23,409 nucleotides of DNA, from positions 1-23,409 of the IMG/VR virus record IMGVR_UViG_3300047358_000251. The stretch is one strand, 5' to 3'. This stretch comes from a virus. The notes under the pieces were generated by a model. The model had not been told where the DNA came from, did no database searches, and was given only the letters and a program-made list of their open reading frames with translations. Shown here piece after piece: positions 883 to 21,031 of the stretch (the first letter of the stretch is position 1; every line of letters begins with the position of its first letter). A program made the position numbers and the translations under genes.

Positions 883-1762
883 CTATCACTTCATCTGTTA
901 AAAATGTTTCATCGCTATAATGAATAATTCCACTGCTAATGATACTGTTCTCGATTTGTATTTTCTGATTATCGGTTACCCAATAATTCAACATATCTGT
1001 CCAGTTTCTTGGCACTTCTTCTAAACTTGGAAATGCACCATGTGACAGACTGTGTAGATCATAATGATTGTTTAGATAAACTCCAACTTCATCATGCATA
1101 TCCATAAAATGTGTTGTAATGTTTCCAAGTATATTTTTTTCAAAATCTTCTGGCTTTCTGTCTGTAAATGTGTTAGTGTACACATCTCTCCAATGTTGAA
1201 AAACTGGATCAGCCATTTTAAACCATTGCATTGCTTCCTGGCTTTCTTTATGAAAGTAAATCATATTGTAGTAGAGTCTTGGAAGTTGATATTGTAATTC
1301 AAATGTATGTCTAAAATCTGGTGGAACATGAAAGTTTCTATAGCTTAATGCATTCTTAGGAAAACTAATGGTTTTGTTTACACTCATTATGTCCCAAAGG
1401 TTAGTGGTATCTACATTAACAAAAAGTGTATCATAGTCTACATAAATTGTTTCTTTGTAAGGTGTACAATGAAATACTTGCCACAGGTTCATGCCATGAA
1501 ACCCGTCTTTGTGAGCACTGTTACCATAAGGCAATTCGATCATATAATCAAACACATGCTCATAATATGAAGGTACTGTACCACTTTGTCCTTTGTCTAC
1601 AACAAGAGTAATACTAGCATTTGGATCACAGTTTAAAATACTACATGCAAGTGCATAACAGTATCTAACATTATCTTCGCCTGTGTTAATACCAAGTGTT
1701 ATGTATCCTCTACTAGGAGCTTCGTCTGCTATTTCTTGTTGTGTTAGTTCTTCGTTAGACAT
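839..1762 (-). CDS. Glycosyltransferase-like protein (GT-A type, DxD motif), second of a tandem pair
   Basis: A predicted nucleotide-sugar-dependent glycosyltransferase of about 307 residues. The central segment TPYKETIYVDYDTLFVN carries a D-Y-D triad (about residues 109-111) after a hydrophobic strand. This is the metal- and nucleotide-sugar-binding DxD arrangement of GT-A folds such as family GT8. The N-terminal part (YITLGINTG...ALACSILNCDPNASITLVVDKG) fits the first Rossmann-like strands. The upstream gene shares the TPYxxT...DxD...N pattern, so the two are probably paralogues. I chose ATG 1762 over TTG 1780. It is preceded by GAGG with a 6-nt spacer, and it overlaps the upstream stop by 8 nt (ATGTCTAA), as expected for translational coupling. 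The substrate and acceptor cannot be read from the sequence. Virion or fibre decoration is possible from the context, as is modification of host glycans. Confidence 0.62.
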   Translation of the reverse strand: MSNEELTQQEIADEAPSRGYITLGINTGEDNVRYCYALACSILNCDPNASITLVVDKGQSGTVPSYYEHVFDYMIELPYGNSAHKDGFHGMNLWQVFHCTPYKETIYVDYDTLFVNVDTTNLWDIMSVNKTISFPKNALSYRNFHVPPDFRHTFELQYQLPRLYYNMIYFHKESQEAMQWFKMADPVFQHWRDVYTNTFTDRKPEDFEKNILGNITTHFMDMHDEVGVYLNNHYDLHSLSHGAFPSLEEVPRNWTDMLNYWVTDNQKIQIENSIISSGIIHYSDETFLTDEVIDVFRSKLITRLQER

Positions 1763-2666
1763 TTGTAGCCTCATTTGCAAACTTCATTAGATCATCATAA
1801 TGTCTGTCCAATGAACGCTTGTTCATAATATGTAGATTTTGATCTGTGTATCTACACAGTACATTCTTCCATTGTTCTTTTCTATTGTGCTTTAGAAATA
1901 CCACATCTTTATAGCCGTTAATTTTTGCAATGTCATCTTTTTGATCCATGTTTAACAATGGCTGTCCTAGAAAGTCATGCACAAAGTCATCATTGTTTAG
2001 TCCATTCATTAAGTGTACTGCAATACTAACACAAAAATCTGTTCTAAACAAGAGTCTTGGAAACTGATATAATAAACTGTAGTATTCCCAATTATCTTTA
2101 ACATGACTCCAGATATCAAAAAACAATTTGGATTCTTCACTTTGGTCGAAATACACAATAGTACTCCACCAATGGTTGATGCCAGCATTGTTGAGTGTAA
2201 TCTCATTTACATATGGGATATCGTGTCCAACATAAGTTGCATACCTATGTAGTGCTACCGCTTCATCTGTATCAAAAATATAATTGTAAAAATCATTACA
2301 TATTAGATAATCTGTATCGATCAACAATGTTTTTTCATACGGAGTAAGTGTGTAAACATCATGTTTTGTATTGTTGTAAAAAGGCGCATTAAACTCAGTC
2401 CAAGGACTGTCCATGTGCCGACGCATATTTCGTTTGTTTGCAACGCCACCATTTTCAACAATCATCTTATCGAAGGTTGCGTCTAGCAATTCTTTACTAT
2501 GCGTTTCTTCCATCCATCCTTTAGTACCATCATCTACGATGATACTCACTGGAAGTTTAAGTTGCTTTTTAGCGTATGTTGCCGCTACTATAGCAAATCT
2601 TGTATAATCTAGCTGGTCGTTATTATAACAGAATAAAACAACGCCGTTACCTTGCTTGTCTTCCAT
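1755..2666 (-). CDS. Glycosyltransferase-like protein (GT-A type, DxD motif), first of a tandem pair
   Basis: A protein of about 303 residues opening with a strand-turn-helix layout (NGVVLFCYNNDQLDYTRFAI). This is followed by LPVSIIVDDGT and then TPYEKTLLIDTDYLICN, where D-T-D (about residues 117-119) is the likely metal/nucleotide-sugar site. Later come a YFDQSEESKLFF helix and a Trp/Tyr-rich segment. The layout is typical of small phage and bacterial GT-A transferases. Similarity to the next gene is clear around the DxD motif, but overall the two have diverged strongly. ATG 2666 lies just behind the upstream stop at 2670. An in-frame TTG at 2669 would add one residue. The Shine-Dalgarno sequence is weak (GGA about 10 nt upstream), so translation probably depends on coupling. 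No signal peptide or membrane anchor is visible, so it should act in the cytoplasm. Acceptor unknown. Confidence 0.6.
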   Translation of the reverse strand: MEDKQGNGVVLFCYNNDQLDYTRFAIVAATYAKKQLKLPVSIIVDDGTKGWMEETHSKELLDATFDKMIVENGGVANKRNMRRHMDSPWTEFNAPFYNNTKHDVYTLTPYEKTLLIDTDYLICNDFYNYIFDTDEAVALHRYATYVGHDIPYVNEITLNNAGINHWWSTIVYFDQSEESKLFFDIWSHVKDNWEYYSLLYQFPRLLFRTDFCVSIAVHLMNGLNNDDFVHDFLGQPLLNMDQKDDIAKINGYKDVVFLKHNRKEQWKNVLCRYTDQNLHIMNKRSLDRHYDDLMKFANEATNV

Positions 2667-2669
2667 CAA

Positions 2670-3081: not shown

Positions 3082-4278
3082 TTAGCTATCATCTGAGCTT
3101 GTAAAATCGTTGACTATTGCGAATGTAGGAGCAGGAGTTACATCAAAGCTAGTTGTACCCACAGTTAATGTATCTGGCATCAAATAACTAATTGTTGGTG
3201 TTATGCTACCGTCAATTACGTTAGCATGTGTAGTATCATCTAATATCATTTTAAATTGAACTCCTGCACCATTGTTAATATACTTGCCATATAACTTAAA
3301 TTGTAGACTTTGGTATGTACTGTATGCACTGTATGAACTTACATAAATGCCACTGTATCCATATCCGTAGCCATAACCATATCCGTACCCATATCCAGAA
3401 CCGCCACCTCTTATAGCAGGGTCAGTCCAAGTTGGATAATTACCTTCACCTGTAATGTAACCGTAACCATAGCCATATGTGCTACCATATGTTCCAACTT
3501 TTCTACCTATTGTAACACCACTTGACGTAAAGAGCAAGCCTTCATTTGTGTTTGGTCCATCGCTACCGTCACCGTATTTGTCTGTTAAATCATAAAATCC
3601 TTTACCTTCGCTAGTACCACTTGTAATAGCCGCACTCTGCGTAACAGTATCCCAATTAAAGTTTAACACACCCATTTCATTGATAACATCACTCCAGTTA
3701 TAGTATCCTGCTGTACTACCGCCTGTCATATTTAAACTAAGTCTAAGTTGACCACCACCATTAAAAAAGTATCTAGCTTTGTTATAACTAGCCCAATCAA
3801 ATTTGTGTTCACCTATAAGTCTATAGTCCCAAGTTGATGTTCTGCCATACCCTGCACTGTTAGCAACAAACGCACTTGCATTTGTAGGATCTACAGTTGT
3901 ATGAGTATTGTTTGTAAGTACGTTTGCAAACTTGCTACGAATTAAATTTAAATCTTCTGCTCTAATTGGTGTTTGAGCAGATATTGTTGTTCTATTAGCA
4001 GGCACTGCAAACACCAATACGTTATCAGTAAGTGTTGTGTGGTCAATACTAATATTTGTTCTGGTTACTAATTCTTGAAGTCTTTCGGCTGTTATTAACA
4101 CACCTTTTGCAACTGCATCGTCTACATTAATGGCACCCCAGCCAAATTTGTGTGTGTTTACACGATTAGGATCAGTAACTACCGCAGTCGAGTACTTGTC
4201 TCCAAACACTTTGTTTACGTCTACTGCTACAAGATTGTAGTCAGTGTTGGTTACTAGATCACCTATAGCCTGAGCCAT
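3082..4278 (-). CDS. Tail or fibre structural protein with Gly-Tyr repeat tracts
   Basis: A 398-residue predicted virion protein, probably in the baseplate periphery or a tail fibre. The N-terminal 130 residues (MAQAIGDLVTNTDYN...) include a helix around AERLQELV. The segment KARYFFNGGGQLRLSLNM (about 168-185) resembles a pattern I recall from marine T4-like structural proteins. FNWDTVTQS follows. Two Gly-Tyr tracts occur: three GY units at about residues 269-274 and seven at about 295-308, separated by a segment ending RGGGSG. The C-terminal region is beta-rich. GY and glycine-rich loops are known in T-even adhesins (gp38 of T2) as receptor-contacting surfaces; applying this here is inference. 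The ATG directly abuts the upstream stop. GGAG (4287-4290), embedded in the end of the preceding gene, serves as the ribosome binding site with an 8-nt spacer. It is the last gene before the 3054 promoter. Confidence 0.75.
   Translation of the reverse strand: MAQAIGDLVTNTDYNLVAVDVNKVFGDKYSTAVVTDPNRVNTHKFGWGAINVDDAVAKGVLITAERLQELVTRTNISIDHTTLTDNVLVFAVPANRTTISAQTPIRAEDLNLIRSKFANVLTNNTHTTVDPTNASAFVANSAGYGRTSTWDYRLIGEHKFDWASYNKARYFFNGGGQLRLSLNMTGGSTAGYYNWSDVINEMGVLNFNWDTVTQSAAITSGTSEGKGFYDLTDKYGDGSDGPNTNEGLLFTSSGVTIGRKVGTYGSTYGYGYGYITGEGNYPTWTDPAIRGGGSGYGYGYGYGYGYGYSGIYVSSYSAYSTYQSLQFKLYGKYINNGAGVQFKMILDDTTHANVIDGSITPTISYLMPDTLTVGTTSFDVTPAPTFAIVNDFTSSDDS
3355..3396 (-). repeat. Seven in-frame hexanucleotide repeats encoding Gly-Tyr
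   Basis: Seven consecutive units of the form GGN-TAY on the minus strand (GGATAT, GGGTAC, GGATAT, GGTTAT, GGCTAC, GGATAT, GGATAC) encode (Gly-Tyr)7. Third positions vary, so selection on the protein is likely. The units are still similar enough for slippage or recombination to change the number in steps of two residues without a frameshift. Confidence 0.9.
3457..3474 (-). repeat. Three in-frame hexanucleotide repeats encoding Gly-Tyr
   Basis: GGCTATGGTTACGGTTAC on the minus strand encodes (Gly-Tyr)3, immediately preceded by Thr-Tyr. It lies about 60 bp (20 residues) before the seven-unit tract in the same protein. The two tracts may be copies of one ancestral run. Confidence 0.85.
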
Positions 4279-5826: not shown

Positions 5827-5834
5827 TATTTATA
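5827..5834 (-). promoter_or_regulatory. T4-type late promoter octamer TATAAATA
   Basis: The minus strand reads TATAAATA, identical to the T4 late promoter consensus. It overlaps the last codon and stop of the giant gene (stop at 5830) and precedes the 5206-5808 gene. With the T4 layout (octamer at -13 to -6), transcription would begin at 5821, leaving 13 nt before ATG 5808. Confidence 0.78.
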
Positions 5835-8800
5835 TCGTTCCTTTGCCTGCATTTCTAATGAATCTGTGTTCAGGCGTTTGTGGGACCGAAACATGTTCAG
5901 TTAAGCTCATCCCACTATCATTATAAGCTAATCTAAGTCCATTTCCGTAATGTGAGAACTTATCTGTGGTAGGTATTCTGGTTCTTGGACCACTGTTTAC
6001 TACTTCAGCACCACTTAAATGCTCTTGTACGCTTGTACCTAGTGTACCTCTTGTACAGAACAGTAAGTCGTTACCGTCTATAGCTTCGTATGTAATTCTT
6101 TCATTGCCAATGTAAATTACACCAGGTTGTCCTGATGTAACACTTGGATCATCTAATACTGTAGCATCTACAACTGGAATTGTAGTGCTTGTTGGTGTAA
6201 TGTCAGATGTTATTGTTGTTTTTTGTGTATCTACAATCACATTGCTTATTTGTATGTTTTGTGGCTGATACTGCGTCATTCTAAATGATCTTGTATGCCC
6301 ACTGTCTAATGTAGCATTTAACATTGTTTGTACTTTAATGCTAATATTTTCTGTAAAGTCTGTAGCCATAAGCTCTTCGCCAAATCCTTCACAAGCAGGT
6401 TGTACAAAAACATTACCATTGTAATCATATTCTAAATCTGCTTGTTGTGTAGTGAATAAACTGTAGTCTACACTGGCTCCAAATATTGTATCAAACTCAC
6501 CGCCATCTAGTACTAAATCACATGCCCAATCTCTGGTGCTATGATCTTCGTATTTCATAGTAATAACCGCTTGACGATCTTGTTCATCAATTTGTATATT
6601 AGTCGACTCACCGTGTGTATTACTTTCTATACTGCTCAATAGCTTAGTATGGAAAGGTTTAATATCATTAATGAATTGTTCTATAGTATCTATACTGTAT
6701 TCTTGATATTGCGGTTTGTTAATTAACAACGGTCTTTTTACTCCTAGACTTGCATAAGTTGTCTTAAATGCAAAGTCGTCTGCTGTATTTTGTAGTATCG
6801 ATGTAAACAGTAACTTGAACCACATTTGGTTGTATTTGACATGATGTCTGTTAATGAAAATTTCTGTTCTCAAAAGATCCATCAATCTACTTATAGCATT
6901 ATCACTACATGCATCAAACGGAGTAACATCAAATCCTATAGCGTCAAATCCGTGTCCAAATTTTGCTTGGTTCCACATCTCTTCACTAAGTTGTACTGTG
7001 GCTTTTTCTTTGTATACTAATTTGTCAGCACCATTAGTATATAGATACATTTCACTTCTGTCAATATCTGATCCTGGACTTGTACTCTTAATCAGTACAT
7101 ATGTACCATCATCAGTTGGTTCGCCTGCATCAATATAATCTTGTTTGGTGTTGTATACCAAATCAGCTACTGTGTTAGGATTAAATCTAAATGTAACATT
7201 GTTGTCAGTATCTCTTTCAACAAGATTCCAATCAACAAGGTTTACATAATCATTTATTCTATAAGTTACTGTTCCTTCTACAAAAGTGCTAGTAAATGCA
7301 TTTTCCCAATTATTAATTTCGTCAATAACATTTACTTCACTTAACAAAGAGTTTACAGCATAAACAAAGTTTTGTCTAGCTTCTTTTAAATCTCTAAACA
7401 AACTTTGTCTTGGTCTGACCTGATGTCCAAATCTGCCGTATTTGTGCAATTTTAAATCTGGTACAGGTTGTCCTCTCCAAATACTAATATCATCAGCTTG
7501 TGTGCCTTCAATGAAGTTATAGTCATATACTCTACTCCAATTACTCATATCTGTATCTGTGCTAGGTTGTTCATTACCATTGTTTGAAATCAAACTAATA
7601 TAATAATTTGCACCTTCTTTTACTACTGCGTCTTTTGCATATACTGTAGTAGGGCTCCATGTAGAGTAAGTTGTATCAAATGTGTTTCTGTTAAATCCTG
7701 CTAAACTATCTCTAACTTTGATATGCAAATATTCAGGGATGGTGCAGTTAGGATCATTTTCACTAATCATATACCAGTCTTGTTGTGCAGATGCATTTGA
7801 CGGAATCTTTTGATTCAACTGACATACTGTACTATCTACTACAAATGGTTGGATATTTTCTAATAGCAATGCATTAGGACCAGTTTGTGCGGCCCAGCTA
7901 ATATTAAAACTATTTGGGTTTGCTAATATCAACGACATCTGTAATGTGTTGTAATTTTTATTAGGCGCACTGTTGATTCTATTTTTAACCCAGAAGTAAT
8001 AAACAACTTCAGTCTTCTTAAGTCTGTCATTGTAATAAGATTCTTCTGTCCAGTTATAAACTTGTTGTCCGTTAATTATTACGCTGTATGCTTCACCACT
8101 AGCTTCTCTGCCATCAATTATTGTTTTTCGAATAACTTCAGTTTCCCATTCTTCAGGTAATACTGGACTTGCTGTCCATTCATATATGTCAATAGTTGAC
8201 CCATCAAATAAACGACCCCAGTTGTTTTGCTGGTAATCAATTGTGCTTTGTTCGTAATCTAAATAAACTGCGGTGCTGATATCCCACCAAATTTTACCTA
8301 AGTAATTTCTACCCCATGCATTTATATTTTCTACTTCACCATCTAGTGTATTGTAGTTGTAATTTGCAATATCGTTTGTTACTTTATAATCAATCTCTTT
8401 GTCTATAAAGCCAAATATAATTCCTTTTGCTGGATCATAAATTTCCAAGTGCTTGAGTGTTTCTTGCTTTTCAGCATCATACAATGTAATGCTTTCCATC
8501 ATATCGTTTCGTGCTTGTCTGATGCTGTCTCTAACTTTAGTCCAGCTACCAATATGTCCGTTAGCATCACTCCATGTGCCTGTCCATTTATATACCGCAC
8601 TCTTTTCTGTACCATCATTGTCTACAAAAGCATATATAGGTGCATTGCTTTGTGTTTGTCTTACACCAGCAAAATTATATTTGAATACATTATTAATTTT
8701 TGTTTGTCTGCTAGCTTCTAACTCAGTAAATGTACCAAATCTCATTTGTCTCAACGGATAGATGTTACCTGCACTGCCTTCTTCATCAATATACTCATCA

Positions 8801-11800
8801 ATATAAATTCTAGTACTACTGTTACCGTCTACCCTTGTTACTTGATGTATACCATCTAAACTAGGTTTGCTGTTACTACCTCTAATAAGAATGTAGTCGC
8901 CAACTTGTAGGTTATGTGCTTGCACATCACCACTTTGTCTTACGATATCTATTTGTGCTTCGTCAGAACTTTGATTACCTACACATATGTTGTCAGTATA
9001 CATACCAAAGTCCATGCTTTGATAAACTTGATATCCTAGGTTGTAGTTGCCAAACTCGCTGTTATCTGCTACCCATATATTGAAAATGTTTGGATCATTA
9101 GCATCTTCAATAAACACAGGATTACCGTTGTTGTCAACCAATGCACTGAATATGTTAGCTGTAACTCCTCTAGTTGCATTGTATGTTTGTGCAGTCAATC
9201 CTATTGAGCTATTTGCAGTTCCGCTACCAATTGTTAATATTGAATTTGTACTTGTTAATCTAAATTCATTGTTGCTGATGCTAGCTGTAACTCCAGTTAT
9301 GTTTGCGGCATTAAACTGCTCAACCATATCTGATAGACTAACACTAACACTGCTGGTAGTTGTTGTAGTACTTGCCGGAATAACACCAGATGGTAAACCA
9401 ATCACAGCATTTGCTGTGCCAGCACCAATAAACAAACTGCTCAATGTACAGTTAATTTGTAACAAGTTATTATTGTTTGCACCTCTTTGTGCAGTGATAC
9501 CACTGATGCTTGCTTGGTTAATTTGATCTATTACTTGTTGTAAAGTTAAATTTGGATTTACTGTGTTACTAGATCCAAGAGCAGATATTGTTTCTTGTCC
9601 TGAACTAAAGCCTACAGCGGCATTCATTGTACCAACACTGATTGTCATACTAAAAATAGTTGAGGGCGTATTAGTAGTTTTAGTTATTTTTAGTCTATTA
9701 GCATCAATACTTGCACTTACATTACTAATACCAGCATTGTTAACTTTTTGTACTATATCAGCTAGTGCATATGTTTGAAATGTTGTTCCAGCTTGTGTTG
9801 AAACTATTGTTGTTGTTAAAAATGTAACTGTGGCATTAGCTTGTAGATATGTTGCAATATCGCTTGTATATGCTCCATTATTAAGTGCAATTTGGCTAGC
9901 TGTAATATCACTAGTAGATACTATCTGTGAACCATTGCCTACGTTAGTACCAGTATAGTTTGTGTTTCTAATATTGTTAATAACTATACAGTCTTGATCT
10001 AATAAGAATTGTGCGGCTTGTTGTGTAGAATCATTTAGTTGTATTTGTTGTAGCAAATGCGGTATATTCAATCCTGCACTGTTTGTGTAGTACGTTCCTA
10101 TCCATGTTGCCCATGCCGCCGCACTATTAGCCGCAATGTATGCCGCTCTAAGACCTTCTATTCTTGCAATTCTTGTTGAAGCTGTTGAACTAATTGTGCT
10201 TGTGTTAGACACCCAACTAGAATTAAATGCATTTTCATATGCTACCTGTGCAGTTATATTTGAGCTTGTTGGTACTAGGTCATCAAATTGTACAGTTGTA
10301 CCATCAATAATAAGTGTTGCTGTTGAGCCTCCATTGATAGTTGGATTTACAGTTGAACCGATCTTATCAATGTCAGCAAACGTAGTAGTTGTAACCGCAT
10401 TAGTAAATGTAATTGTGTTATTCAATGCGGCTGTCTGTCCAAGTATTACAGTTGTCCCGTCTTGAACTAGATTGCTACTGGCTATATTTTGTGTACCAGT
10501 TACTGCAATACTATTTGTGGTTGTACTTGTTGCACTTTTACTAAATGTAATTGTGTTGCCATCTACTATTAATGTTTGTCCACTGCTAGGTACAGTTGGT
10601 AGCTGAATGTTACCATGTATTTCAATTGGATTTTGTGCAGTTGTTAATCCACTGCTTCCATCTTCGTCTAACATTGTCCAAGTTCTGCCTTTGTGCAATA
10701 CTTTTTCGTTGAACTTGTAACTTCTTCTTGTATCAAAGTTTTCGATATCTTGCCAATCGCCTTCGTGATTGTATGCACTTCTAACTTCAGTTGGAAATTG
10801 TGTAAAGTCTTCTTTGCTTAATACTCTGTAATCTGCTTCACTTAACAACGGCAATCCAGCAGTGATTAAATCATCTTTAAACATAGGATCACTTGTGTTC
10901 TTGTATGTTTGTTCATCTCTTGTAAAGAAATTATTACCTAAGTTATCATAAACTAGTAACGGACTTGTCTTGTCAATATCTATTACAATATCGCTGAGTA
11001 CGTCATATTTTGTAGTGTTATAAAACCTAACAGGCTGTGGACTAGTTTCTAGTAAATCTGGAGTAATTTGAAATTCTAGTGTTTCTCTGTTTCGAGTATC
11101 GCCGTAGTCTGCCATTCTAACAGCCCACTTTTCTAATAGCTCTGCACTAGCTATGCCATCGTATAAACCTTTGTTACGCATAAATGCTTGTAGAGCATGT
11201 GCGGTACTTTTGTACTTGTAACTTCCTTTAACAAATTCAAATACGCTGTCATCGTCCATATCTAATGTTTCAGCCCAACTTGGTTTATTATAGCCAGTAT
11301 TAAATCTAGCTACATCGCTGAGTTGTTTATTAGCTAGTGTATTGGTCCTGCCTAAATATTGATCTACTTCTTTTGCTGTAGTATCAAAGTTTGGTAAGAT
11401 AGAATCATTATTAACAATATAACCTGGTGAGTAAAGTTTACCATTCCAGTCTTTAGTTCTTGAGCCTCTCCAAATAATTCTATCATGACTTTGTCCAATA
11501 GTAAGATTTGAGATAGTGTCATCGAAGTTTGTAATATTATCAAAAACAAATATGTGTTCTAGCTGAACTTTGTATAGTCTAATACCATATAGCAGTGTGT
11601 CATCATCTTTAACTCGAAAAGTAGTTTCTGAGTCTGTCTCCATACTTTTTCTATCAATAATGAATTTGTTACTTTGTAGTTGATTACCGCTGGCATCAAT
11701 TAAATTATAAACACCATCATAGCGTTTGTCTATGTTGTCAAAATATCCATCTAATCCATCTGCTACTACAACTTTGTTTGGATCAGGAATAAGATTTAGT

Positions 11801-14800
11801 GTTATTGTTGTGTCACTAGCGGCCCAGTTTACAAAACTAGCACCTGAACTTCTCCATTGCTGATTAAATCCTAAGCCATTGAGATAGTGTCCATATCCTT
11901 GTATAAAGTCATACACTTCTTGTATTGTTCTCAGTTCAGTATTATAATCCAATATGCTTATCATAGGTTCATATGATTTGTATCTCACAACTCTAATATT
12001 TTCAGCACCATCTATATTAACTGTTATAGGATCAGTTGCTGTATTAGGTTTGTTGTAGCTAAAGTATGCTAAACTATTATCATAGCCGTTAATTTTATAA
12101 CCGTTGTCTGTTTTATCAATTTTAATACCGCCATAAAAATATTCAATGTCTGGTTTGTTGGTGTAAAGCAATGTAGTAACATTTTCTTCAGGAACAAAAA
12201 CTCTTCCTTTGTCCTGACTGCTTTCTAATATAAAGTTATTATTTCTGTTAACAAAGCCACTAGCTTTGATAACGTTTTGGAAAGTTATGTTTTCTAATCT
12301 GTTTCTCAGCGTATCAGCGCCTGTGCCATAAACATTGGCAAATTCTACAATACTATTACTCAGCCCGTTATAATAACGTGTAGCGTTTTCAACTAGTATT
12401 GGGTCTAAGATAGCATTTCCAGTAACTTCTAAATTAGGTCTATTGTAATATTGACTACCTTGATTTGTAACTCTAGCTCCGACTATAGCTCCGTTTTCTA
12501 CTATTGCTTCAACAGTGCCGTCGATACCAAAGTTATCATTAACTTTTACAGTTGGTGCAGTTGTGTATCCGCTTCCGCCATTTTTAACAACAACACTTTC
12601 AATTATTTTACCTAGTATACTGGCGCCAGTTAATTTTGTATCTTTCCAGCTTACAAGTTTAAGAGCAATAGAATCTATGTCTTGTGGATGGTCATACCCG
12701 CTTACGCTTTTTACTGTTCTTCTCAGTGTTCTAAAATAGTTGTTAAGAACAACCAATGGTCTTGTTCTCATAATAGCAATTATGTTTGCAATTTTACCTT
12801 CGCTGGTTCTGCGCCATTCAGCTTCTACAGGACCCCAATCTCCAAATACAAAGTCTTGTGTTCTTTCTGCCGCACCTGGACTAGGAACAACACTTGCTGT
12901 AACAGGATCATTCAATACACCCAGTAGTGTTACAAGAGTTTGTCCTTGCCAGTCATAGTTTTTGAGAGCATAGTTGATATCAAATACATCTGCTGTACCT
13001 GGATCGCTTATTTTTCCAAACTCAAGTGCTAGTAAAAGTGCTTGACGTTTTACTGCATCAGTCCAACTATAATATGTGTCCCACCATGCAGGCTCTTTGT
13101 TAAATCCTAGCATCTCCCAAGGATGGGTATGTGGTCTATCTGTATTGAAGTAGTAAATGTATAGTCCTCTCCAGCCACCAATGCCAGGACCTACACTGCT
13201 ATAGTTCCAAGTAAATTTATCAACGCCATCATAATATGTTGTACTATTGAGTTCTGTAATATTGTTTTTGATTTTGTACTTGTTAAATTCACTTCTAATT
13301 GTATTTTGATATTCTCTCCAAGTATACACTGCTGGTCTGTGTGCATTTATAACATGTGCATTTAAATTTTGTGTTTGATCTAACGCACTACCTAGGTTAT
13401 TGTAAATTCTTGTTTCTAAATCCCATAAGCCTGCATCAACTGGATCATATCCTGCTGTTTGTCTCTGATATAATTCTGTACCGTTGCGTAGATGTATACT
13501 TCCGTCATGTCCAATAATAACATTGTCAGTTGCAGTACCTGTACTATCTTTGCTGTAATCACTTCTAATCTCAGGTGTGTAAGGCTTGTTTAATCCTAGT
13601 TTAACATCACTAGTAGGAATAAAACTTACACTATTTCTACCGAACCATCTAATTACTGCATTGTTTTTACCACTGCCTGGCATTTGATTAGCATTAGGAT
13701 CTGTAATAGTAACTTTGGTTGCAGTTATTGTATATCCAATATCTTTTACCAAACTCTTCCAAGTGTGATCTCCGTTTGCATCTGGAATTTGTATATACAC
13801 TTGTACGTGATTAAAAGTATCGTCATAGTTATTAATTTCTTCAGGTAAGTCAAACACTGGTGTTTGATTGAATACCCAACTAACTTCTAGCTCTTTGTAA
13901 TCTCTGTACATTGCCATTTGACTATTAGCAAATGCTTGACTTGCATTCTTACCAATGTTCATTGCTTCTAATGTTTTGTCAACCAATGCATATGTAGGCA
14001 ATGTAATATCTAAACTATTGTGTAGTTGTACAATTTTTTGTTTGAATCTTTCTTTAAAACTACTATATTGACTGCTATTGAATTGTAAAGCACTATAAGG
14101 ATTAGTGTTTGTGTCAACTAGCAGTTGATTAAGTAATTCTGGACTATAAGGCTGTTGTCTAATAGTACCAACATTCTCATGTACTCTTGCAATGTTTCTG
14201 TAGTTATTTGCTCCGTACCAATCACCTTCAAACTGTGGGTGGTTACGCATTTGACTACGCATATGATCAACTAAGTCTCCAAAACTTAATTTACCAAAGT
14301 TTTGATTTTGAGGATTAAACAGTTGTGTACTTGAAACTTTATGCGAACCTTCGCCTGTTAAACTATAATCGTCATCAGTACTAAAACTAAATTCATAAAC
14401 GTCATCTACTATTAAGCCACTGCTTATTGTAGCAATGTTGCCTACATGAGTATAGTTGTTAAATGTTACACCGTTCTTTTTAACTCTAACATTTGTTTCA
14501 TTTGTTTTTACATCAAAAAAGATAACACCAAACGTTGTAGGATCTGCAACCAGTCTATACTTTACACTGTCGACTGTTGGCGTAGTAATTGTTAATTGAA
14601 AATGATTGCCAGCACCTGCTGTTCTTGTTATACCTGCACCTAGTGGAGATCCATCTATATTAACAAACTCAATTTCTGCTTGTGGAAACTGTGTAGTGAT
14701 TTCATATACGTTGTCGTTGTAAAAGAATAGTGTAGGCATTTTTCCGCCTATACGTTTTATTCTACCTTTGTCAACATTCAAATCTTGTTGACTGAATACA

Positions 14801-17133
14801 CCTAGTGTGCTATGTTCTTTAAAAAATGTATAGTGTCTATCACTGGCATACTTTGCATGTCCTAAATCTACAACCATCGGAACTGTCTGATCAGTAACAA
14901 CTTTCTTAATTACTTTTTCAAGTAGCTGTCCTTCTCTTGTTAGTACCCAACCATTATAGTATCTACCTTTTGTAAAGTCTTTATAATAGTAGTATCCTGG
15001 AATATCAATTTGATTGCTTTGTTCAAAGTCCGCACTTTGATTTATGTATGTAAATCTACGATCTAATAATTCCATACAAAAGTTTAGTCCTGGATTATTT
15101 CCATAGTCTACATACTCTGGTCTAAAACCTAGTGCATCATCATAATCGTTATTATCATTATGCTGAAAATCAAATATAGTTGCGCCTGCAAAATCACTAG
15201 TTGGATATTTTGTAGCATCACTTAGTGACACTAAGTCAGTGTCATACAGTTCTACACACATACCTTGACTTCTGTGTTCTTTTTGTTTACTGTATCTCCA
15301 ACCTGTTGTAGTTGTTGGATCAACATAAAGTTCTGCACCACTTTTAGGTGCTTCAGCCTCTCCTTGTCCAGTGCCGCCAATTAGTCCAAAATCAAATGTA
15401 TTAAAACCGTTAAGCAATAATATTTTATCATCAGCCTCTAACTTGGTTACTCCACTGCCACCAACAAAGTCATATGCTAACAATAATTGAATGCTTGTGC
15501 CTACGCCAGTAACTTTAAAAATTTTGTTTTTATAACTTGCATTGCTAGTAGCAAAGAAAATAATCAAGTCATCATCTTCAAGTTCTACTGGAGTAATTTG
15601 CTCCCAGAATTCTCTGTTTTCACCGTGTGTAGGTTTACGAATTTCGCCGTGTGCTTGTACACATTCCCAATATGTCACAACAAAGTTTGGTGCTGTTCCG
15701 CTAGTAACTTTAACTTGATCGCCTCTGTCATAGCCAACTATTCCACTCCACTCTGTGTTAATACCACTAACAGTAACACTATAGGCAGTTTGTCCCACAA
15801 TAGTTGTAGCCGGATCATCTCCTGACTCTAAGTAGTGATCTACATTAAGTACATGTCGTCTACCAAAGTTAAATTTGTCAATTCCAGCTTTGTATTCAAT
15901 AATAGGTCTCACAGCTCTGTATCTTTCAATAGCATAGATGTTATCTGTTATGCCTTGATATGTTAGCATTGCTGAAATAGTTTCTTCATGCACCCACAAG
16001 TTGCTTCTTGCCCATGCACTTTGATCTGGACTATAACGCTGTTCGCATGTATAATCTCTGGTGGTCATTCTGTGTTCTCTGAGATCATATGGTCTAAAAT
16101 CAAAACTTGCATCATCTGCATCAAAGCCTGCGGGCTCTTGACTACTGTAAGTTGTAATGTTTAACCACACTCGTTTACCTTGCTTGCCTTCGTATTGACC
16201 ACGTTCGAATTGTTTTGTTAATCTAATACCATCAGGATCACCTACACCGTCAACAATATAAATTGCTTGGTTAGCAAAATCGTCAGTTGCACTGTGTGAA
16301 TAGTGAGTATGTATCTCAATTTCCTGTGTAAGTGCTGGTGCAGTACCAAATGTAACAACACCTGCGGATTTATTAAGAGTATAGTGTATTCCTTCTTTCT
16401 GTCTTACATTGTTAAGAAAAACATCAATACTGTGTGCGCCAGTGACTGTTGCTGTAAAAACTGTAGTTCCTGTTACAGTTTGTGTAAATCTGTCCACTGT
16501 ATGTGGCGCAAACATAATACGCATGCCATTTTCAAGTTTAAGTGTTCTGCCATTTTTCTGTACAGGAGTTGTGTAATTAATCATACCAGGCAATGTGTCA
16601 ATGTTAAAATGACTTCCAGGTGTATATTTTAATTCACAAACTGGTACAACATCCATTACCCAAAAGTATCTATGATGATTTAAAAACATATCATAGTTAA
16701 TAGGTAAGTCTAATGTGTATCCTGGTTCATTTAAAATCTTATTGTGATTATTAGTAGGTACTTCATTGTACTTTAAACTTTTGATTAAGTCGTCATATGC
16801 TAATACTTGGTCAATGCTGTTATCTTCATTTTTGTTGACCATTGCTGGCTCAAATTGATATGCATCATTACTTCTATTGTCATGCAAGTAGCTGTCTGAA
16901 GCACTAGGAGCAAACTGTCTTCCAAATGGTTTACCAACAAAATGTTTAACAGATTCTAAACTACCACTTGACATTAGCTGTTCAAGTGTGCTATCAAAGA
17001 ATTGCTTGTTAACTGTGGTCTGTAGAATATCAGGTAAAAGCTCTGTTACTCTATTAGATCCTTTGCGTTCTAAACTTTCACCTGGTCTCGTAATATTAGG
17101 TGCTAGTTTTCTGTCAGGCTTGCGTTCGCTCAT
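5830..17133 (-). CDS. Giant (3767-residue) mosaic baseplate/tail structural protein in the gp7/gp8 slot
   Basis: An 11.3-kb uninterrupted frame coding a predicted virion protein. The N-terminus (VTELLPDILQTTVNKQFFDS, then YQFEPAMVNKN) matches a giant protein I recall after gp6 in marine T4-like phages. Visible modules, by approximate residue: a beta domain with DVFLNNVRQKEGIHYTL (222-268); W/Y modules at 459-513, 2122-2155 and 3157-3202; a GGSGYTTAPTV glycine module (1515-1578); a Ser/Thr/Asn/Ala-rich insert (2180-2660) with three flagellin IN-like repeats; and a C-terminal IGNERITY...TRGTLGT motif (3670-3711). T4 gp7 has 1032 residues and gp8 has 334, and I see no clear sequence match to either, so the wedge role rests on position. 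GGAGG lies 6 nt before the ATG, which overlaps the gp6 stop by one base (TAATG). Confidence 0.8.
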   Translation of the reverse strand: MSERKPDRKLAPNITRPGESLERKGSNRVTELLPDILQTTVNKQFFDSTLEQLMSSGSLESVKHFVGKPFGRQFAPSASDSYLHDNRSNDAYQFEPAMVNKNEDNSIDQVLAYDDLIKSLKYNEVPTNNHNKILNEPGYTLDLPINYDMFLNHHRYFWVMDVVPVCELKYTPGSHFNIDTLPGMINYTTPVQKNGRTLKLENGMRIMFAPHTVDRFTQTVTGTTVFTATVTGAHSIDVFLNNVRQKEGIHYTLNKSAGVVTFGTAPALTQEIEIHTHYSHSATDDFANQAIYIVDGVGDPDGIRLTKQFERGQYEGKQGKRVWLNITTYSSQEPAGFDADDASFDFRPYDLREHRMTTRDYTCEQRYSPDQSAWARSNLWVHEETISAMLTYQGITDNIYAIERYRAVRPIIEYKAGIDKFNFGRRHVLNVDHYLESGDDPATTIVGQTAYSVTVSGINTEWSGIVGYDRGDQVKVTSGTAPNFVVTYWECVQAHGEIRKPTHGENREFWEQITPVELEDDDLIIFFATSNASYKNKIFKVTGVGTSIQLLLAYDFVGGSGVTKLEADDKILLLNGFNTFDFGLIGGTGQGEAEAPKSGAELYVDPTTTTGWRYSKQKEHRSQGMCVELYDTDLVSLSDATKYPTSDFAGATIFDFQHNDNNDYDDALGFRPEYVDYGNNPGLNFCMELLDRRFTYINQSADFEQSNQIDIPGYYYYKDFTKGRYYNGWVLTREGQLLEKVIKKVVTDQTVPMVVDLGHAKYASDRHYTFFKEHSTLGVFSQQDLNVDKGRIKRIGGKMPTLFFYNDNVYEITTQFPQAEIEFVNIDGSPLGAGITRTAGAGNHFQLTITTPTVDSVKYRLVADPTTFGVIFFDVKTNETNVRVKKNGVTFNNYTHVGNIATISSGLIVDDVYEFSFSTDDDYSLTGEGSHKVSSTQLFNPQNQNFGKLSFGDLVDHMRSQMRNHPQFEGDWYGANNYRNIARVHENVGTIRQQPYSPELLNQLLVDTNTNPYSALQFNSSQYSSFKERFKQKIVQLHNSLDITLPTYALVDKTLEAMNIGKNASQAFANSQMAMYRDYKELEVSWVFNQTPVFDLPEEINNYDDTFNHVQVYIQIPDANGDHTWKSLVKDIGYTITATKVTITDPNANQMPGSGKNNAVIRWFGRNSVSFIPTSDVKLGLNKPYTPEIRSDYSKDSTGTATDNVIIGHDGSIHLRNGTELYQRQTAGYDPVDAGLWDLETRIYNNLGSALDQTQNLNAHVINAHRPAVYTWREYQNTIRSEFNKYKIKNNITELNSTTYYDGVDKFTWNYSSVGPGIGGWRGLYIYYFNTDRPHTHPWEMLGFNKEPAWWDTYYSWTDAVKRQALLLALEFGKISDPGTADVFDINYALKNYDWQGQTLVTLLGVLNDPVTASVVPSPGAAERTQDFVFGDWGPVEAEWRRTSEGKIANIIAIMRTRPLVVLNNYFRTLRRTVKSVSGYDHPQDIDSIALKLVSWKDTKLTGASILGKIIESVVVKNGGSGYTTAPTVKVNDNFGIDGTVEAIVENGAIVGARVTNQGSQYYNRPNLEVTGNAILDPILVENATRYYNGLSNSIVEFANVYGTGADTLRNRLENITFQNVIKASGFVNRNNNFILESSQDKGRVFVPEENVTTLLYTNKPDIEYFYGGIKIDKTDNGYKINGYDNSLAYFSYNKPNTATDPITVNIDGAENIRVVRYKSYEPMISILDYNTELRTIQEVYDFIQGYGHYLNGLGFNQQWRSSGASFVNWAASDTTITLNLIPDPNKVVVADGLDGYFDNIDKRYDGVYNLIDASGNQLQSNKFIIDRKSMETDSETTFRVKDDDTLLYGIRLYKVQLEHIFVFDNITNFDDTISNLTIGQSHDRIIWRGSRTKDWNGKLYSPGYIVNNDSILPNFDTTAKEVDQYLGRTNTLANKQLSDVARFNTGYNKPSWAETLDMDDDSVFEFVKGSYKYKSTAHALQAFMRNKGLYDGIASAELLEKWAVRMADYGDTRNRETLEFQITPDLLETSPQPVRFYNTTKYDVLSDIVIDIDKTSPLLVYDNLGNNFFTRDEQTYKNTSDPMFKDDLITAGLPLLSEADYRVLSKEDFTQFPTEVRSAYNHEGDWQDIENFDTRRSYKFNEKVLHKGRTWTMLDEDGSSGLTTAQNPIEIHGNIQLPTVPSSGQTLIVDGNTITFSKSATSTTTNSIAVTGTQNIASSNLVQDGTTVILGQTAALNNTITFTNAVTTTTFADIDKIGSTVNPTINGGSTATLIIDGTTVQFDDLVPTSSNITAQVAYENAFNSSWVSNTSTISSTASTRIARIEGLRAAYIAANSAAAWATWIGTYYTNSAGLNIPHLLQQIQLNDSTQQAAQFLLDQDCIVINNIRNTNYTGTNVGNGSQIVSTSDITASQIALNNGAYTSDIATYLQANATVTFLTTTIVSTQAGTTFQTYALADIVQKVNNAGISNVSASIDANRLKITKTTNTPSTIFSMTISVGTMNAAVGFSSGQETISALGSSNTVNPNLTLQQVIDQINQASISGITAQRGANNNNLLQINCTLSSLFIGAGTANAVIGLPSGVIPASTTTTTSSVSVSLSDMVEQFNAANITGVTASISNNEFRLTSTNSILTIGSGTANSSIGLTAQTYNATRGVTANIFSALVDNNGNPVFIEDANDPNIFNIWVADNSEFGNYNLGYQVYQSMDFGMYTDNICVGNQSSDEAQIDIVRQSGDVQAHNLQVGDYILIRGSNSKPSLDGIHQVTRVDGNSSTRIYIDEYIDEEGSAGNIYPLRQMRFGTFTELEASRQTKINNVFKYNFAGVRQTQSNAPIYAFVDNDGTEKSAVYKWTGTWSDANGHIGSWTKVRDSIRQARNDMMESITLYDAEKQETLKHLEIYDPAKGIIFGFIDKEIDYKVTNDIANYNYNTLDGEVENINAWGRNYLGKIWWDISTAVYLDYEQSTIDYQQNNWGRLFDGSTIDIYEWTASPVLPEEWETEVIRKTIIDGREASGEAYSVIINGQQVYNWTEESYYNDRLKKTEVVYYFWVKNRINSAPNKNYNTLQMSLILANPNSFNISWAAQTGPNALLLENIQPFVVDSTVCQLNQKIPSNASAQQDWYMISENDPNCTIPEYLHIKVRDSLAGFNRNTFDTTYSTWSPTTVYAKDAVVKEGANYYISLISNNGNEQPSTDTDMSNWSRVYDYNFIEGTQADDISIWRGQPVPDLKLHKYGRFGHQVRPRQSLFRDLKEARQNFVYAVNSLLSEVNVIDEINNWENAFTSTFVEGTVTYRINDYVNLVDWNLVERDTDNNVTFRFNPNTVADLVYNTKQDYIDAGEPTDDGTYVLIKSTSPGSDIDRSEMYLYTNGADKLVYKEKATVQLSEEMWNQAKFGHGFDAIGFDVTPFDACSDNAISRLMDLLRTEIFINRHHVKYNQMWFKLLFTSILQNTADDFAFKTTYASLGVKRPLLINKPQYQEYSIDTIEQFINDIKPFHTKLLSSIESNTHGESTNIQIDEQDRQAVITMKYEDHSTRDWACDLVLDGGEFDTIFGASVDYSLFTTQQADLEYDYNGNVFVQPACEGFGEELMATDFTENISIKVQTMLNATLDSGHTRSFRMTQYQPQNIQISNVIVDTQKTTITSDITPTSTTIPVVDATVLDDPSVTSGQPGVIYIGNERITYEAIDGNDLLFCTRGTLGTSVQEHLSGAEVVNSGPRTRIPTTDKFSHYGNGLRLAYNDSGMSLTEHVSVPQTPEHRFIRNAGKGTI
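9180..9775 (-). repeat. Three tandem protein repeats resembling the flagellin/FliD IN motif
   Basis: Within the giant protein lie three units, at about 9590-9775, 9380-9553 and 9180-9350, spaced about 70 residues apart. Each has the pattern [L][x][D/Q][I/V/M]V...N-x-A-x-I-[S/G/T]-x-[V/I][S/T]A, then N-x-[L/F]-x-[I/L], then a G-T-[A/M]-N-[A/S] tract and [I/V]-G-[L/F]. Examples are DIVQKVNNAGISNVSAS, QVIDQINQASISGITAQ and DMVEQFNAANITGVTAS. Each is preceded by a Ser/Thr-rich leader. The order INxA...GVTAS...LxLTS...GxANxxIGL resembles the IN repeat of flagellar hook-associated proteins. Confidence 0.65.
12400..12590 (-). repeat. GGSGYT glycine-rich module in the giant protein
   Basis: The segment starting KNGGSGYTTAPTVKV is followed about 35 residues later by a degenerate second unit (NQGSQYYNRPNLEV). 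The same two-unit arrangement occurs in gp6 at 18600-18815, pointing to a mobile structural module shared by adjacent genes. Confidence 0.75.
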
Positions 17134-20100
17134 TAATAGCCTCCACTTGAAGTTGCGTTTTCGCTAATTGTTGTAAGGTTGGCACTTGAAGTATTAGTAA
17201 CTACAACATTATTTGTTTTAACTACTGGTAAAAATAGTTCGTCACTGCTACAACTTATTTGGAATAAATTTGTGCTATCACTATTATCAGCAATACTGCT
17301 AATTGTAATTTGACTTATTTCACCAATCATATTATTGTGTATAAAAGCCGCCATTTCAGTAAAGTAAAAGTCTTCGCCAAAGTCCCAATTATCAATATTA
17401 AAATATGTACTAATCAAGTTAATGACTCTCTGCTTAATCTCTGTATCACTTAGCGTACTGTTTATTGTTTTTGTAACATGAAATTTAGCTTGTAGTTCAG
17501 CACTTGCTAAATCACCAAACAATAACTTATACTTAACAGGTCTGTATATTACCTGATCACTGATACTCTTTTTACTATTCAAGTTATCAAACAAATCTGT
17601 TAACTCACTAATAGTTGGCGAGTTGGGTTTTGTTTCTGGTCTACCGTCATACAATGCCCAGTTTCTAAATAGTGAATTGAAACTATCTAACAATACATAA
17701 GTGTCAATTATATTTGTTGTGCTTGGATCAATTAAATGATTGATGTCAGCAATTCTATTATACTGTGTATGTAAGTTTCCTATACCACTAACAACCGAAG
17801 TTCCGCTAACTTCATCATATGTAGTATAATCAAAACCATCAATAGTTTTAGTACCCAATTTAATTGTTTCGTCACCTACAATATTTGCAAATGCTTCTGG
17901 ATCATTTGGGTATCCATCGTTATCAGGATCAGCTAGTGTTACTCTTACATTGTGAGGATCAGTATATCCATCATTGTAAGTAAAGTATCCAAATGCATTA
18001 AACTGATAATCTTTGTTTAGTGGAGTTGGGTCTACAGTACTCTTAGGATTAATTTTTAATACTTTAACATTATCTCTGAGAGGTTTTTGTGTTTCACTAC
18101 TAAAGGTATCTTTAAAGTTTAGATTTGTAAACCTTAACTTTTTCTTACTACCCATAATAAACTGTGTCTTTCTCGTTAACATTTCCCATTCAGTCGCTGT
18201 ATGATTTAATCTTATAATCCAACTGTTATCTAGTCCTGTACCAGATCCATCGCCTTCGTATTGTCTACTCCAGTTTGATGCATCATTTAGTGTTGTACTA
18301 TTTGTTGGAAGGTTACTACTATCAATAATAATCCATTTCTGACTAGGTGCATCGTATCTGAGACCAAACGTATTATTGCTGTCTATTTTTGCAATTACGT
18401 TTGTTCTAGTTGTTTCGTCTAAGTCCACGCTAAGTCTCGGAACAATTCTTCTAATTCTGCTTCCGCTCGGAACTACTCCATTAACAACAATACTTCCTTT
18501 GCCTGTATTGTCTATACCTGTTGGGTTACCAGCACTGTTATCATCTCCATAACCGCTTTTATAAAGTCTGTCAACTTTTACCCATTGTGTGTTTGCATCT
18601 ATAATAGTACCTCTAGCTGTAGCGCCTGTGCCGCCTCCGCCTGAGATAGAAATATTTGTACTCTGATCATATCCGCTACCACTTGAAGTTATTGCTATTG
18701 ATGTTACTGCTCCATTAGCAATAGTACAAATTGCTGTTGCTCCTGTACCTTTTCCACTTATAGTTACTGTTGGTGTACTTGTGTATCCACTTCCGCCTGC
18801 TGTAATTACTGCATTAGAGATATATCCCATTTTGTATGGTGCTTCGATAAATTCAATCAAACCGTTAACATCTGCTTTACTTAAACTGTTAGTAGCAGTT
18901 TTACCCATACGTTGAACAATACTGTTATAGGTAATATATCCACTACAACTATTGTTTCCTTTGGTTATTTGATTCCATCTAAAAGTATTTGCATCAGTGC
19001 CATTGGAATTGATTACAGTAATATTCTGTGTTGTGTCTGTAAAATCTTTAAAAGCATTATGTGTTGTGCTACTCCAACCCTGTCTGTTGTAATAAAAATT
19101 AAAAATCTCTGGGTGACTTAGAAATGGTTTTAGATGTTTGTCATATATCTGTGTTGCACTTAAATTGTTAGGCAAACTTACAACCGATCTTGTTGTTAGG
19201 TTCTTTTCATACAAATATGCATCATCTGTATATTGTGTGCTATCGCTATATGTTCCAGTCGGATCATAGATATCTCTAAATCTACTGTGTCCGCTGTGTA
19301 CTCTATTCACACTTTTAATTTTTCTAATATTCTGACTTGCTGTTAGAGGCATAATTGTATAGTCATCTGCTGTGACCATTCTATCCTGCGTAGCAAAGAA
19401 TCTAGGAGCGTTTGCTTTTATACTGCTAATACTTTCTCTTGTACTTGCATTGCTTACTGTGCTTTTCAAACTTGCTGTAAATCTTGCAGTGTTCACATTT
19501 CCGCTTGCACTTACATAGTCTAAAGTAAATGCTACTTGGTTAAAACTGTCTGGCGTTAGTGTGTAGCTTTGATTAAGCCCTGTTCTGTACCAAACTCTGA
19601 TGTTGCCTCTTGGAATGTTTCCAAAATTGCCATCGCCAAATACAATACTAATTTGATCATTCTCTCTACTAGCAATAGTATAGATATCTCTGATAGCATT
19701 GTTCTTTGCATTAAACATTGTGTTAGCGCCAAATAGTCTATCTACTCTACTCCAAGTTTTTATTACTTGTCCAGCTTCGTCGATGTTTTGTACCCATACT
19801 TCGCCATTGGCTACATTGTCTGCATTGATGTCTAGTATCATATTAGGCAAACCATTGGTGATTGTAAAGTCACTGAATTCAAGTGATCCTTGTTTAAATC
19901 CAATAAAAAATCCAGTGTCGGGTGATCCGAATCCACTGTTATCATTTTTATAAAGTAAATCAACTACTCCGTATGGATTTGGATCTTTTTCTTTTAAACT
20001 ATTTGTTGCGTTGTTAGTTGATACACTATGCAAACTAAATGTTGATTTGCTGTTGTTAACACGGTTGCTAAATTCTCTGTTGCTGGTATTGTTTGTGCTA

Positions 20101-20669
20101 TTAGTTCTGTACACATCATTTACAATACCGCCTCTGGTAATAGTATCAAACGGACTACCAAATTGGCTACTGTTTTGAAAAATACTATTCATAATTGTTA
20201 AAAAGTTTTGGTAACTTTGAGGATTAGTCACATCTTCAAACTGTGTGGAAACGTTGGCAAGGCTTACTCCAGTTGAATCAAATACTTCTTCGTCAGTCTG
20301 TACACTATCAATTTTTAAGAATCCACTAGCAACAACGTTTCTAGTAGGAGTATATCCTAAGAACTGTGCAATACGCAAAGCACTTTCTCTGCGTTCTGCT
20401 GTACTAAGATAGTTTTCTCTTTGACCTAAATCTGCTCTAAATGCAAGATTGTGTCCGAGAAATGCAATTAATTCAATAAGTGCAATAAATTCACTGCTAT
20501 TAATATAGTCATTAAAGTTTTCTGGATAGTTTGTATTGATGTAGTCTACCATAGAATTTCTTATGGTTTCAAAATCATATGCTTGCAAATTAGCTTGAGC
20601 AAAACTTTCGTATGCTACTGTAAAATCTTCTGCCGCAAACAAACTACTCTGACGTGCGCCTTGTGCCAT
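17133..20669 (-). CDS. 6: Baseplate wedge protein gp6 (J/gp47-like), enlarged
   Basis: A 1178-residue homologue of T4 gp6 (660 residues), a ring-forming wedge subunit that joins neighbouring wedges in the contractile-tail baseplate. The N-terminal helical part (about 18-120) has YESFAQANLQAYDFETIRNS, INSSEFIALIELIAFLGHNL and LSTAERRESALRIAQFLGY, a characteristic J-like opening. FGDGNFGNIPRG (about 340) and ATQDRMVTADDY (about 425) are core signatures. The C-terminus (FNIDNWDFGEDFYFTEMAAF, then SCSSDELFLP) matches the gp6 dimerisation end. The extra length is largely in the middle, including a two-unit GGSGYTSTPTVTI module (about 619-690) absent from T4 gp6. The ATG overlaps the gp25 stop by one base, with GAGGAAT just upstream. 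It is likely expressed from the late promoter at 21037 and translationally coupled to gp25. Confidence 0.93.
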   Translation of the reverse strand: MAQGARQSSLFAAEDFTVAYESFAQANLQAYDFETIRNSMVDYINTNYPENFNDYINSSEFIALIELIAFLGHNLAFRADLGQRENYLSTAERRESALRIAQFLGYTPTRNVVASGFLKIDSVQTDEEVFDSTGVSLANVSTQFEDVTNPQSYQNFLTIMNSIFQNSSQFGSPFDTITRGGIVNDVYRTNSTNNTSNREFSNRVNNSKSTFSLHSVSTNNATNSLKEKDPNPYGVVDLLYKNDNSGFGSPDTGFFIGFKQGSLEFSDFTITNGLPNMILDINADNVANGEVWVQNIDEAGQVIKTWSRVDRLFGANTMFNAKNNAIRDIYTIASRENDQISIVFGDGNFGNIPRGNIRVWYRTGLNQSYTLTPDSFNQVAFTLDYVSASGNVNTARFTASLKSTVSNASTRESISSIKANAPRFFATQDRMVTADDYTIMPLTASQNIRKIKSVNRVHSGHSRFRDIYDPTGTYSDSTQYTDDAYLYEKNLTTRSVVSLPNNLSATQIYDKHLKPFLSHPEIFNFYYNRQGWSSTTHNAFKDFTDTTQNITVINSNGTDANTFRWNQITKGNNSCSGYITYNSIVQRMGKTATNSLSKADVNGLIEFIEAPYKMGYISNAVITAGGSGYTSTPTVTISGKGTGATAICTIANGAVTSIAITSSGSGYDQSTNISISGGGGTGATARGTIIDANTQWVKVDRLYKSGYGDDNSAGNPTGIDNTGKGSIVVNGVVPSGSRIRRIVPRLSVDLDETTRTNVIAKIDSNNTFGLRYDAPSQKWIIIDSSNLPTNSTTLNDASNWSRQYEGDGSGTGLDNSWIIRLNHTATEWEMLTRKTQFIMGSKKKLRFTNLNFKDTFSSETQKPLRDNVKVLKINPKSTVDPTPLNKDYQFNAFGYFTYNDGYTDPHNVRVTLADPDNDGYPNDPEAFANIVGDETIKLGTKTIDGFDYTTYDEVSGTSVVSGIGNLHTQYNRIADINHLIDPSTTNIIDTYVLLDSFNSLFRNWALYDGRPETKPNSPTISELTDLFDNLNSKKSISDQVIYRPVKYKLLFGDLASAELQAKFHVTKTINSTLSDTEIKQRVINLISTYFNIDNWDFGEDFYFTEMAAFIHNNMIGEISQITISSIADNSDSTNLFQISCSSDELFLPVVKTNNVVVTNTSSANLTTISENATSSGGY
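18600..18815 (-). repeat. Two-unit GGSGYT glycine-rich module in gp6
   Basis: Two consecutive units of about 36 residues (GGSGYTSTPTVTISGKGTGA and SGSGYDQSTNISISGGGGTG) share the pattern GSGY...(V/I)(T/S)I..G..GTGATA. The codon use is richer in glycine and slightly in GC than the flanks. The same module type appears in the giant protein. Confidence 0.8.
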
Positions 20670-21031
20670 TATTCCTCACCTGTAAATGTTAGGAACAGTT
20701 CTTCTGCTGTTCCTGTGCTAATATATTCTAATCTAACTTTGATGTTTAGTGTATGATCATCTGGTTTACTGACTAGCGTTTCCAATACTCGCCAACGTGG
20801 ATCATTTGTTACTATTCTATCAACATCTTCTGTAGCTTCTCTTTCAGTCATTTCATCCAATGGTTCAAACACCAAGTCGGGTAAAATGCTACCAAACAGA
20901 GGATTTTGTACTCGTTCACCTCTTCTGGTGTAAAAATTGTTTAATAGATCACGTTTAGCAAGCTCTGCATCTACCAGAGTTTTGCTTCCGTTAATACTGT
21001 CTATTGTGCTATATCCGATATAGGTTACCAT
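20669..21031 (-). CDS. 25: Baseplate wedge protein gp25
   Basis: A 120-residue member of the GPW/gp25 family, a small wedge component conserved in contractile phage tails, R-type pyocins and type VI secretion (TssE), where it helps link the sheath initiator to the baseplate. The opening VTYIGYSTID, then ELAKRDLLNNFYTRRGER, LFGSILPDLVFEPL and finally NDPRWRVLE follow the family consensus in the right order and at full family length (T4 gp25 has 132 residues). The ATG at 21031 has no Shine-Dalgarno sequence. The late octamer at 21037-21044 places the predicted transcript start exactly on the A of this ATG. No other in-frame start would preserve the conserved N-terminus. It is the first gene of the gp25-gp6-giant unit and shares a TAATG junction with gp6. 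Confidence 0.93.
   Translation of the reverse strand: MVTYIGYSTIDSINGSKTLVDAELAKRDLLNNFYTRRGERVQNPLFGSILPDLVFEPLDEMTEREATEDVDRIVTNDPRWRVLETLVSKPDDHTLNIKVRLEYISTGTAEELFLTFTGEE

Follow-up and report, generated by a model that had tools for sequence, protein, structure and literature searches.

Domains that resemble parts of the flagellar cap protein FliD have already been reported in phage virions. The tail sheath of Vibrio phage XM1 was found to contain a FliD-like domain, for which a host origin has been suggested (PMC10457771), and crAss001 has likewise been reported to carry one in its auxiliary capsid protein (PMC10172136). According to the Adele paper, this fold is shared by FliD and flagellin with sheaths, podovirus nozzles, and auxiliary capsid proteins (PMC12846349). 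For extra sheath domains, which sit away from the tube contact, a contribution to stability or adhesion has been considered (PMC9230969). The locus described here resembles XM1, in which an insertion domain similar to FliD D3 is found in a contractile-tail protein (PMC10457771); however, XM1 carries one domain in the sheath, determined by cryo-EM, whereas three tandem copies are predicted here in a giant protein. It also resembles crAss001 in reusing a FliD/FliC-like domain in the virion (PMC10172136), although the FD domain of crAss001 decorates the capsid and the present array probably belongs to the tail. FliD-like modules in phage virions are therefore known, and what is well supported as new is their location and tandem arrangement in a giant baseplate-type protein. 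The reuse of FliD/flagellin-type modules, hitherto described for sheath, nozzle, and auxiliary capsid, thus extends to a protein of this type, in which tandem modules occupy a slot of variable length, apparently after a single gain in a clade without cultivated members.

The window, i.e., the whole stretch of DNA analysed, is one entire IMG/VR virus record of 23,409 bases. Its minus strand codes for hub-like, gp25-like, and gp6-like proteins and for a protein of 3767 amino acids. The virus is an uncultivated, bacteria-infecting phage that is probably very large and, judging by the IMG/VR sample numbers, putatively marine. The features referred to below are as follows:

20669..21031, minus strand: gp25-like baseplate wedge protein (PF04965, 28.7 bits, above the cut-off of 27.2)
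17133..20669, minus strand: gp6-like baseplate wedge protein (PHROG 10646 'baseplate wedge subunit', 2.3e-260)
5830..17133, minus strand: giant virion structural protein, 3767 aa, probably a baseplate wedge (open reading frame; PHROG 10938)
10984..12156, minus strand: conserved block flanking the slot upstream, residues 1660-2050, from which the tree was built
9151..10602, minus strand: Ser/Thr/Asn/Ala-rich insert in the length-variable slot, residues 2178-2661 (composition; slot lengths in relatives)
10543..10575, minus strand: first hairpin, TLIVDGNTITF, residues 2187-2197, which may open a degenerate module without a helix (sequence; beta-only in the AlphaFold2 model)
10285..10317, minus strand: second hairpin, TLIIDGTTVQF, residues 2273-2283, likely the first strands of unit a (sequence)
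9838..10251, minus strand: all-helical sub-insert between the second hairpin and the unit a helix, residues 2295-2432 (AlphaFold2)
9595..9774, minus strand: IN-like unit a, residues 2454-2513 (HMM; hhalign to cellular IN; AlphaFold2)
9373..9552, minus strand: IN-like unit b, residues 2528-2587 (HMM; hhalign; AlphaFold2)
9175..9342, minus strand: IN-like unit c, residues 2598-2653 (HMM; hhalign; PF07196 match at 9244-9360)
7288..8544, minus strand: conserved block flanking the slot downstream, residues 2864-3282

The giant protein matches PHROG 10938 ('virion structural protein') with an E-value of 3.2e-218, and its PA5oct homologue bears the annotation 'virion structural protein' together with the note ESI-MS/MS. 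The closest named relatives of both the gp6-like and the giant protein are found in jumbo myoviruses, namely Agrobacterium phage Atu_ph07, Sinorhizobium phage Phosso, PA5oct, SCTP-2, RaK2, BF, Munch, XaC1, and others. Gene order, relatives, and PHROG naming together suggest that the 3767-aa protein is probably a baseplate wedge component. Its resemblance to T4 is confined to the gene order 25-6-giant; PDB searches by sequence and profile gave no link to solved structures such as T4 gp7, to which the giant protein may be remotely homologous. The gene is not itself a fliD or flagellin gene: its neighbours are those for gp25 and gp6, and a Pfam scan of the giant protein found no flagellar family, including the terminal D0/D1 domains of flagellin and FliD. 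Some further observations concern the surrounding genes. In the gp6-like protein (17133-20669, minus strand), residues ~613-699 contain GGSGYTSTPTVTISGKGTGATA repeats, which are common to several PHROG virion families; similar repeats partly occupy, in the slots of Atu_ph07 and Phosso (L022 and L023), the place of the IN array of the window. Within the virion gene cluster, two adjoining open reading frames (839-1780 and 1755-2669, minus strand; 313 and 304 aa) look glycosyltransferase-like by reading (motifs DYDTLF and DTDYLI); neither had a match in Pfam, PHROG, or NCBIfam, nor did the product of 839-1780 in PDB. Downstream of the giant protein, a 398-aa protein (3082-4278, minus strand) contains a long GYGYGYGYGYGYSG run and had no match in Pfam or PHROG.

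The insert had been described as Ser/Thr/Asn/Ala-rich and different from the rest of the protein, and its composition bears this out: these four residues make up 49.8% of it, compared with a maximum of 31.4% in 484-residue windows clear of the insert. Moreover, charged residues are scarce (D, 3.3 vs 7.9%; E, 1.0 vs 5.2%; K, 1.0 vs 4.6%; R, 1.7 vs 4.4%). The two expected copies of the motif TL(I/V)xDGxT(I/V)xF are present at residues 2187 and 2273, with a spacing of 86 rather than ~88 residues. From their sequence, these hairpins are plausible unit starts, the second one being likely separated from the rest of unit a by the helical sub-insert. In the single-module phage proteins L096, L098, and L105, a hairpin of the type NPTI..TLII..TI.L immediately precedes the IN helix; a hairpin-only profile scored 8.6 bits on the first hairpin of the window and 1.7 bits on the second, the best shuffle reaching 7.1. 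In the records L019, L020, and L021, an extra beta-rich stretch of ~100 residues (KFFTYKGYFMSTFQ...) lies within the helical sub-insert.

The three units start at residues 2454, 2528, and 2598, i.e., at intervals of 74 and then 70 residues. That they are homologous tandem repeats, as proposed, is confirmed by HMMs built from single units, which recover the other two at 16.7-44.2 bits, far above the best scores obtained with 500 shuffled inserts per model (6.4, 14.3, and 11.1). Units a, b, and c are kept in this order in ~65 orthologous records, and in a tree of units from 41 orthologues they group by position: cleanly for b, with 40 of 41 copies for a, and with 33 of 41 for c, the most diverged copies of which fall outside. 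Because the unit types group separately across orthologues, the duplications must be old and predate the clade, and a recent duplication or an assembly artefact is ruled out. AlphaFold2, run on the insert with 41 orthologues, returned a mean pLDDT of 85.6, most block means exceeding 90, and predicted the same secondary structure in all three units: a helix, three strands, a short helix over TANxxIGL, and two linking strands. N-terminal of unit a, the model contains a beta-only part followed by the helical sub-insert (model positions 150-287, pLDDT above 90). A two-unit construct without the linking hairpins reached a pLDDT of 75.6, below that of the full insert; the units therefore probably depend on their neighbours, and a single module may not constitute an autonomous domain. 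Helicobacter pylori FliD (6iwy) ranked first in both fold searches of the PDB, with weak E-values (0.014 and 0.57) and low TM-scores. Among viral predicted structures (BFVD), four were hit at E <= 0.001, two of them tail sheath proteins. By sequence profile, a SUN-domain construct (5ywz, E 1e-4) was placed above FliD (E 3); a SUN-domain identity was judged to be a chance match, which indicates that chance motif-level similarity of this strength is possible.

Flagellin_IN (PF07196), found in FliD and flagellins, has a curated gathering cut-off of 22.7 bits. The window units show a similar arrangement, in which a helix is followed by a GVTAS strand and an LxLTS strand, and their predicted secondary structure is compatible with that of the family. 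In contrast to Flagellin_IN proper, they score below the cut-off (19.3 bits for unit c, and 19 bits over units b-c, where the match is split into two stretches) and have a GAGTANxxIGL tail that is found in other phage modules. One orthologue (L069, contig G021) exceeds the cut-off, with 23.3 bits. Pfam gave nothing on the whole insert or the full-length protein, apparently owing to HMMER filters, and PF07196 surfaced only with shorter pieces and in a genome search. When a set of 31 IN modules taken from genomes of Pseudomonadota was compared with the units by hhalign, a, b, and c reached 91.1, 76.2, and 88.9%, respectively, whereas other parts of the insert gave 0.1-0.3% and column-shuffled profiles no more than 3.7%. 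Single-unit HMMs matched cellular IN loci only marginally. A profile of 81 positions (A3) matches many Pfam IN loci; since it includes sheath modules that themselves score on Pfam, more weight was put on a profile built from the window clade only (A4). Among 150 Pseudomonadota genomes, the latter yielded nine hits at E <= 0.05, five of which overlap separately found Pfam Flagellin_IN matches, while a sixth shares a contig with such a match, at a distance of ~4 kb. These results support kinship of the units to the flagellar IN module, albeit a remote one: the resemblance to flagellin and FliD repeats noted in the original prediction holds at the level of profiles, and does not extend to Pfam membership.

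The nearest relatives of the units are, by profile comparison, modules in other phage virion proteins, including tail sheaths, and not flagellar modules. Compared with modules of other IMG/VR phage proteins, which comprise sheath-like proteins of 1115-1175 aa (L097, L105) and proteins of 207-210 aa (L096, L098), the window units reach 98-99%, as against 76-91% with cellular IN modules. In the PF07196 genome search, the annotated tail sheaths of Atu_ph07 (YP_009611797) and Phosso (XYS97550) are above the cut-off with 26.6 and 32.3 bits, respectively; in a whole-protein hmmscan, the Phosso sheath passes (28.4) and that of Atu_ph07 is borderline (19.6). Their modules reach 96.6% with the cellular profile and 61-68% with the window units. 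These two phages thus resemble the window virus in having an IN-type module in a virion protein, but carry it in the sheath, their own giant proteins being devoid of it. A BLAST search of the insert against 50,697 phage records returned no match.

The slot lies between the conserved blocks that end at ~2050 and begin at ~2864, and measures 637-947 aa in proteins with units and 209-1536 aa in those without. A tree with 63 rows was built from the upstream block and rooted at its midpoint; a branch with 99/95 support sets apart all 38 rows that bear units, a distribution that requires one change in 98% of bootstraps, and there is no named isolate among them or elsewhere on their side. Under this root, a single gain in the ancestor of one clade of uncultivated phages is a simpler reading than loss in the other clade, and the wide spread of unit-less lineages favours it further. 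The IN/FliD-like module thus behaves as an accessory domain, being inside a virion structural protein and missing from related ones. The insert had also been expected to vary among orthologues; it is indeed missing at the same place in other lineages, but it is fixed within its own clade. A variable receptor-binding cassette within the clade is ruled out, since every record with units has the array, the slot measuring 637-947 aa. The slot of SCTP-2 looked lectin-like by eye, which Pfam did not support.

Taken together, these data favour, with a probability of about 60%, a three-module array of FliD/flagellin type that was gained once at a variable slot and serves as an exposed accessory arm. 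In this reading, the array, which follows a beta-rich part and the helical sub-insert, consists of three serial Flagellin_IN-like alpha/beta modules, acquired once by the ancestor of an uncultivated clade related to jumbo myoviruses, in the giant protein adjacent to gp6. The array itself, the variable slot, the single gain on the tree, and the kinship to tail sheath modules are established, and kinship to flagellar IN modules is supported at a remote level. The small, presumably rigid domains would stand off the structural core at the surface, where the arm would contact neighbouring subunits or tail fibres and stiffen or decorate the baseplate; it may also bind the host surface weakly, as has been proposed for extra tail sheath domains. 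We consider it unlikely that the units are instead a beta-rich repeat peculiar to phages, with an INxA..GVTAS..LxLTS pattern that came to resemble Flagellin_IN by convergence, without common descent with flagellar proteins. Their scores below the Pfam cut-off, the weak PDB fold E-values, the ranking of a SUN domain above FliD by sequence, and the fact that the closest relatives are all phage proteins would fit convergence; however, each unit separately matches the cellular IN profile while compositionally similar neighbours do not, the clade-only profile finds flagellar IN loci, an orthologue passes the Pfam cut-off, and the Phosso and Atu_ph07 sheath modules link the cellular profile to the window units. 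Recent direct capture from a host fliD or flagellin gene is very improbable: motif similarity and the host origin suggested for the XM1 sheath domain (PMC10457771) speak for it, but the units are closer to phage than to cellular modules, their duplications are older than the clade, and terminal D0/D1 domains were not found by Pfam in the giant protein. Since the closest relatives are phage virion modules, nothing indicates that a flagellar cap module was captured directly, and the source was probably a pool circulating among phage virion proteins. Of the predicted acquisition of a filament-cap-type module, remote IN kinship is therefore retained, and a direct flagellar source is not.

It is similarly doubtful that the array functions mainly in host binding (to a receptor or glycan, possibly the flagellum), as an adhesin rather than a structural spacer. 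Slot length and content do differ between lineages, and help in adhesion has been proposed for extra sheath domains (PMC9230969); nevertheless, the order and position of the array are conserved throughout the clade, whereas a receptor-binding tip would be expected to be hypervariable, and Pfam detected no lectin or adhesin family in the slots of the lineages tested. The accessory-arm reading is preferred. A filament-cap-like role, in which copies from adjacent wedges would form a ring or fringe around the baseplate, either to engage host flagella or to help the tail polymerise, appears highly improbable; if true, the flagellar cap principle would have been reused for its function as well as its structure.

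A further observation concerns the distribution of modules between sheath and giant protein. The module is found in the sheath and not in the giant protein in Atu_ph07 (L022), Phosso (L023), and contig G036 (L105), whereas contigs G026 (L082) and G040 (L118) have it in the giant protein, their sheaths (832 and 820 aa) being without that stretch. This either-or pattern, which comprises the five records in which both proteins are readable and is too small for a rule, hints at an interchangeable surface role for the modules. In PA5oct, a further weak match to the IN-module profile (L132; E 1.6e-6, 26.5 bits) is located at 207720-207881, within gp181, a structural protein annotated with ESI-MS/MS.
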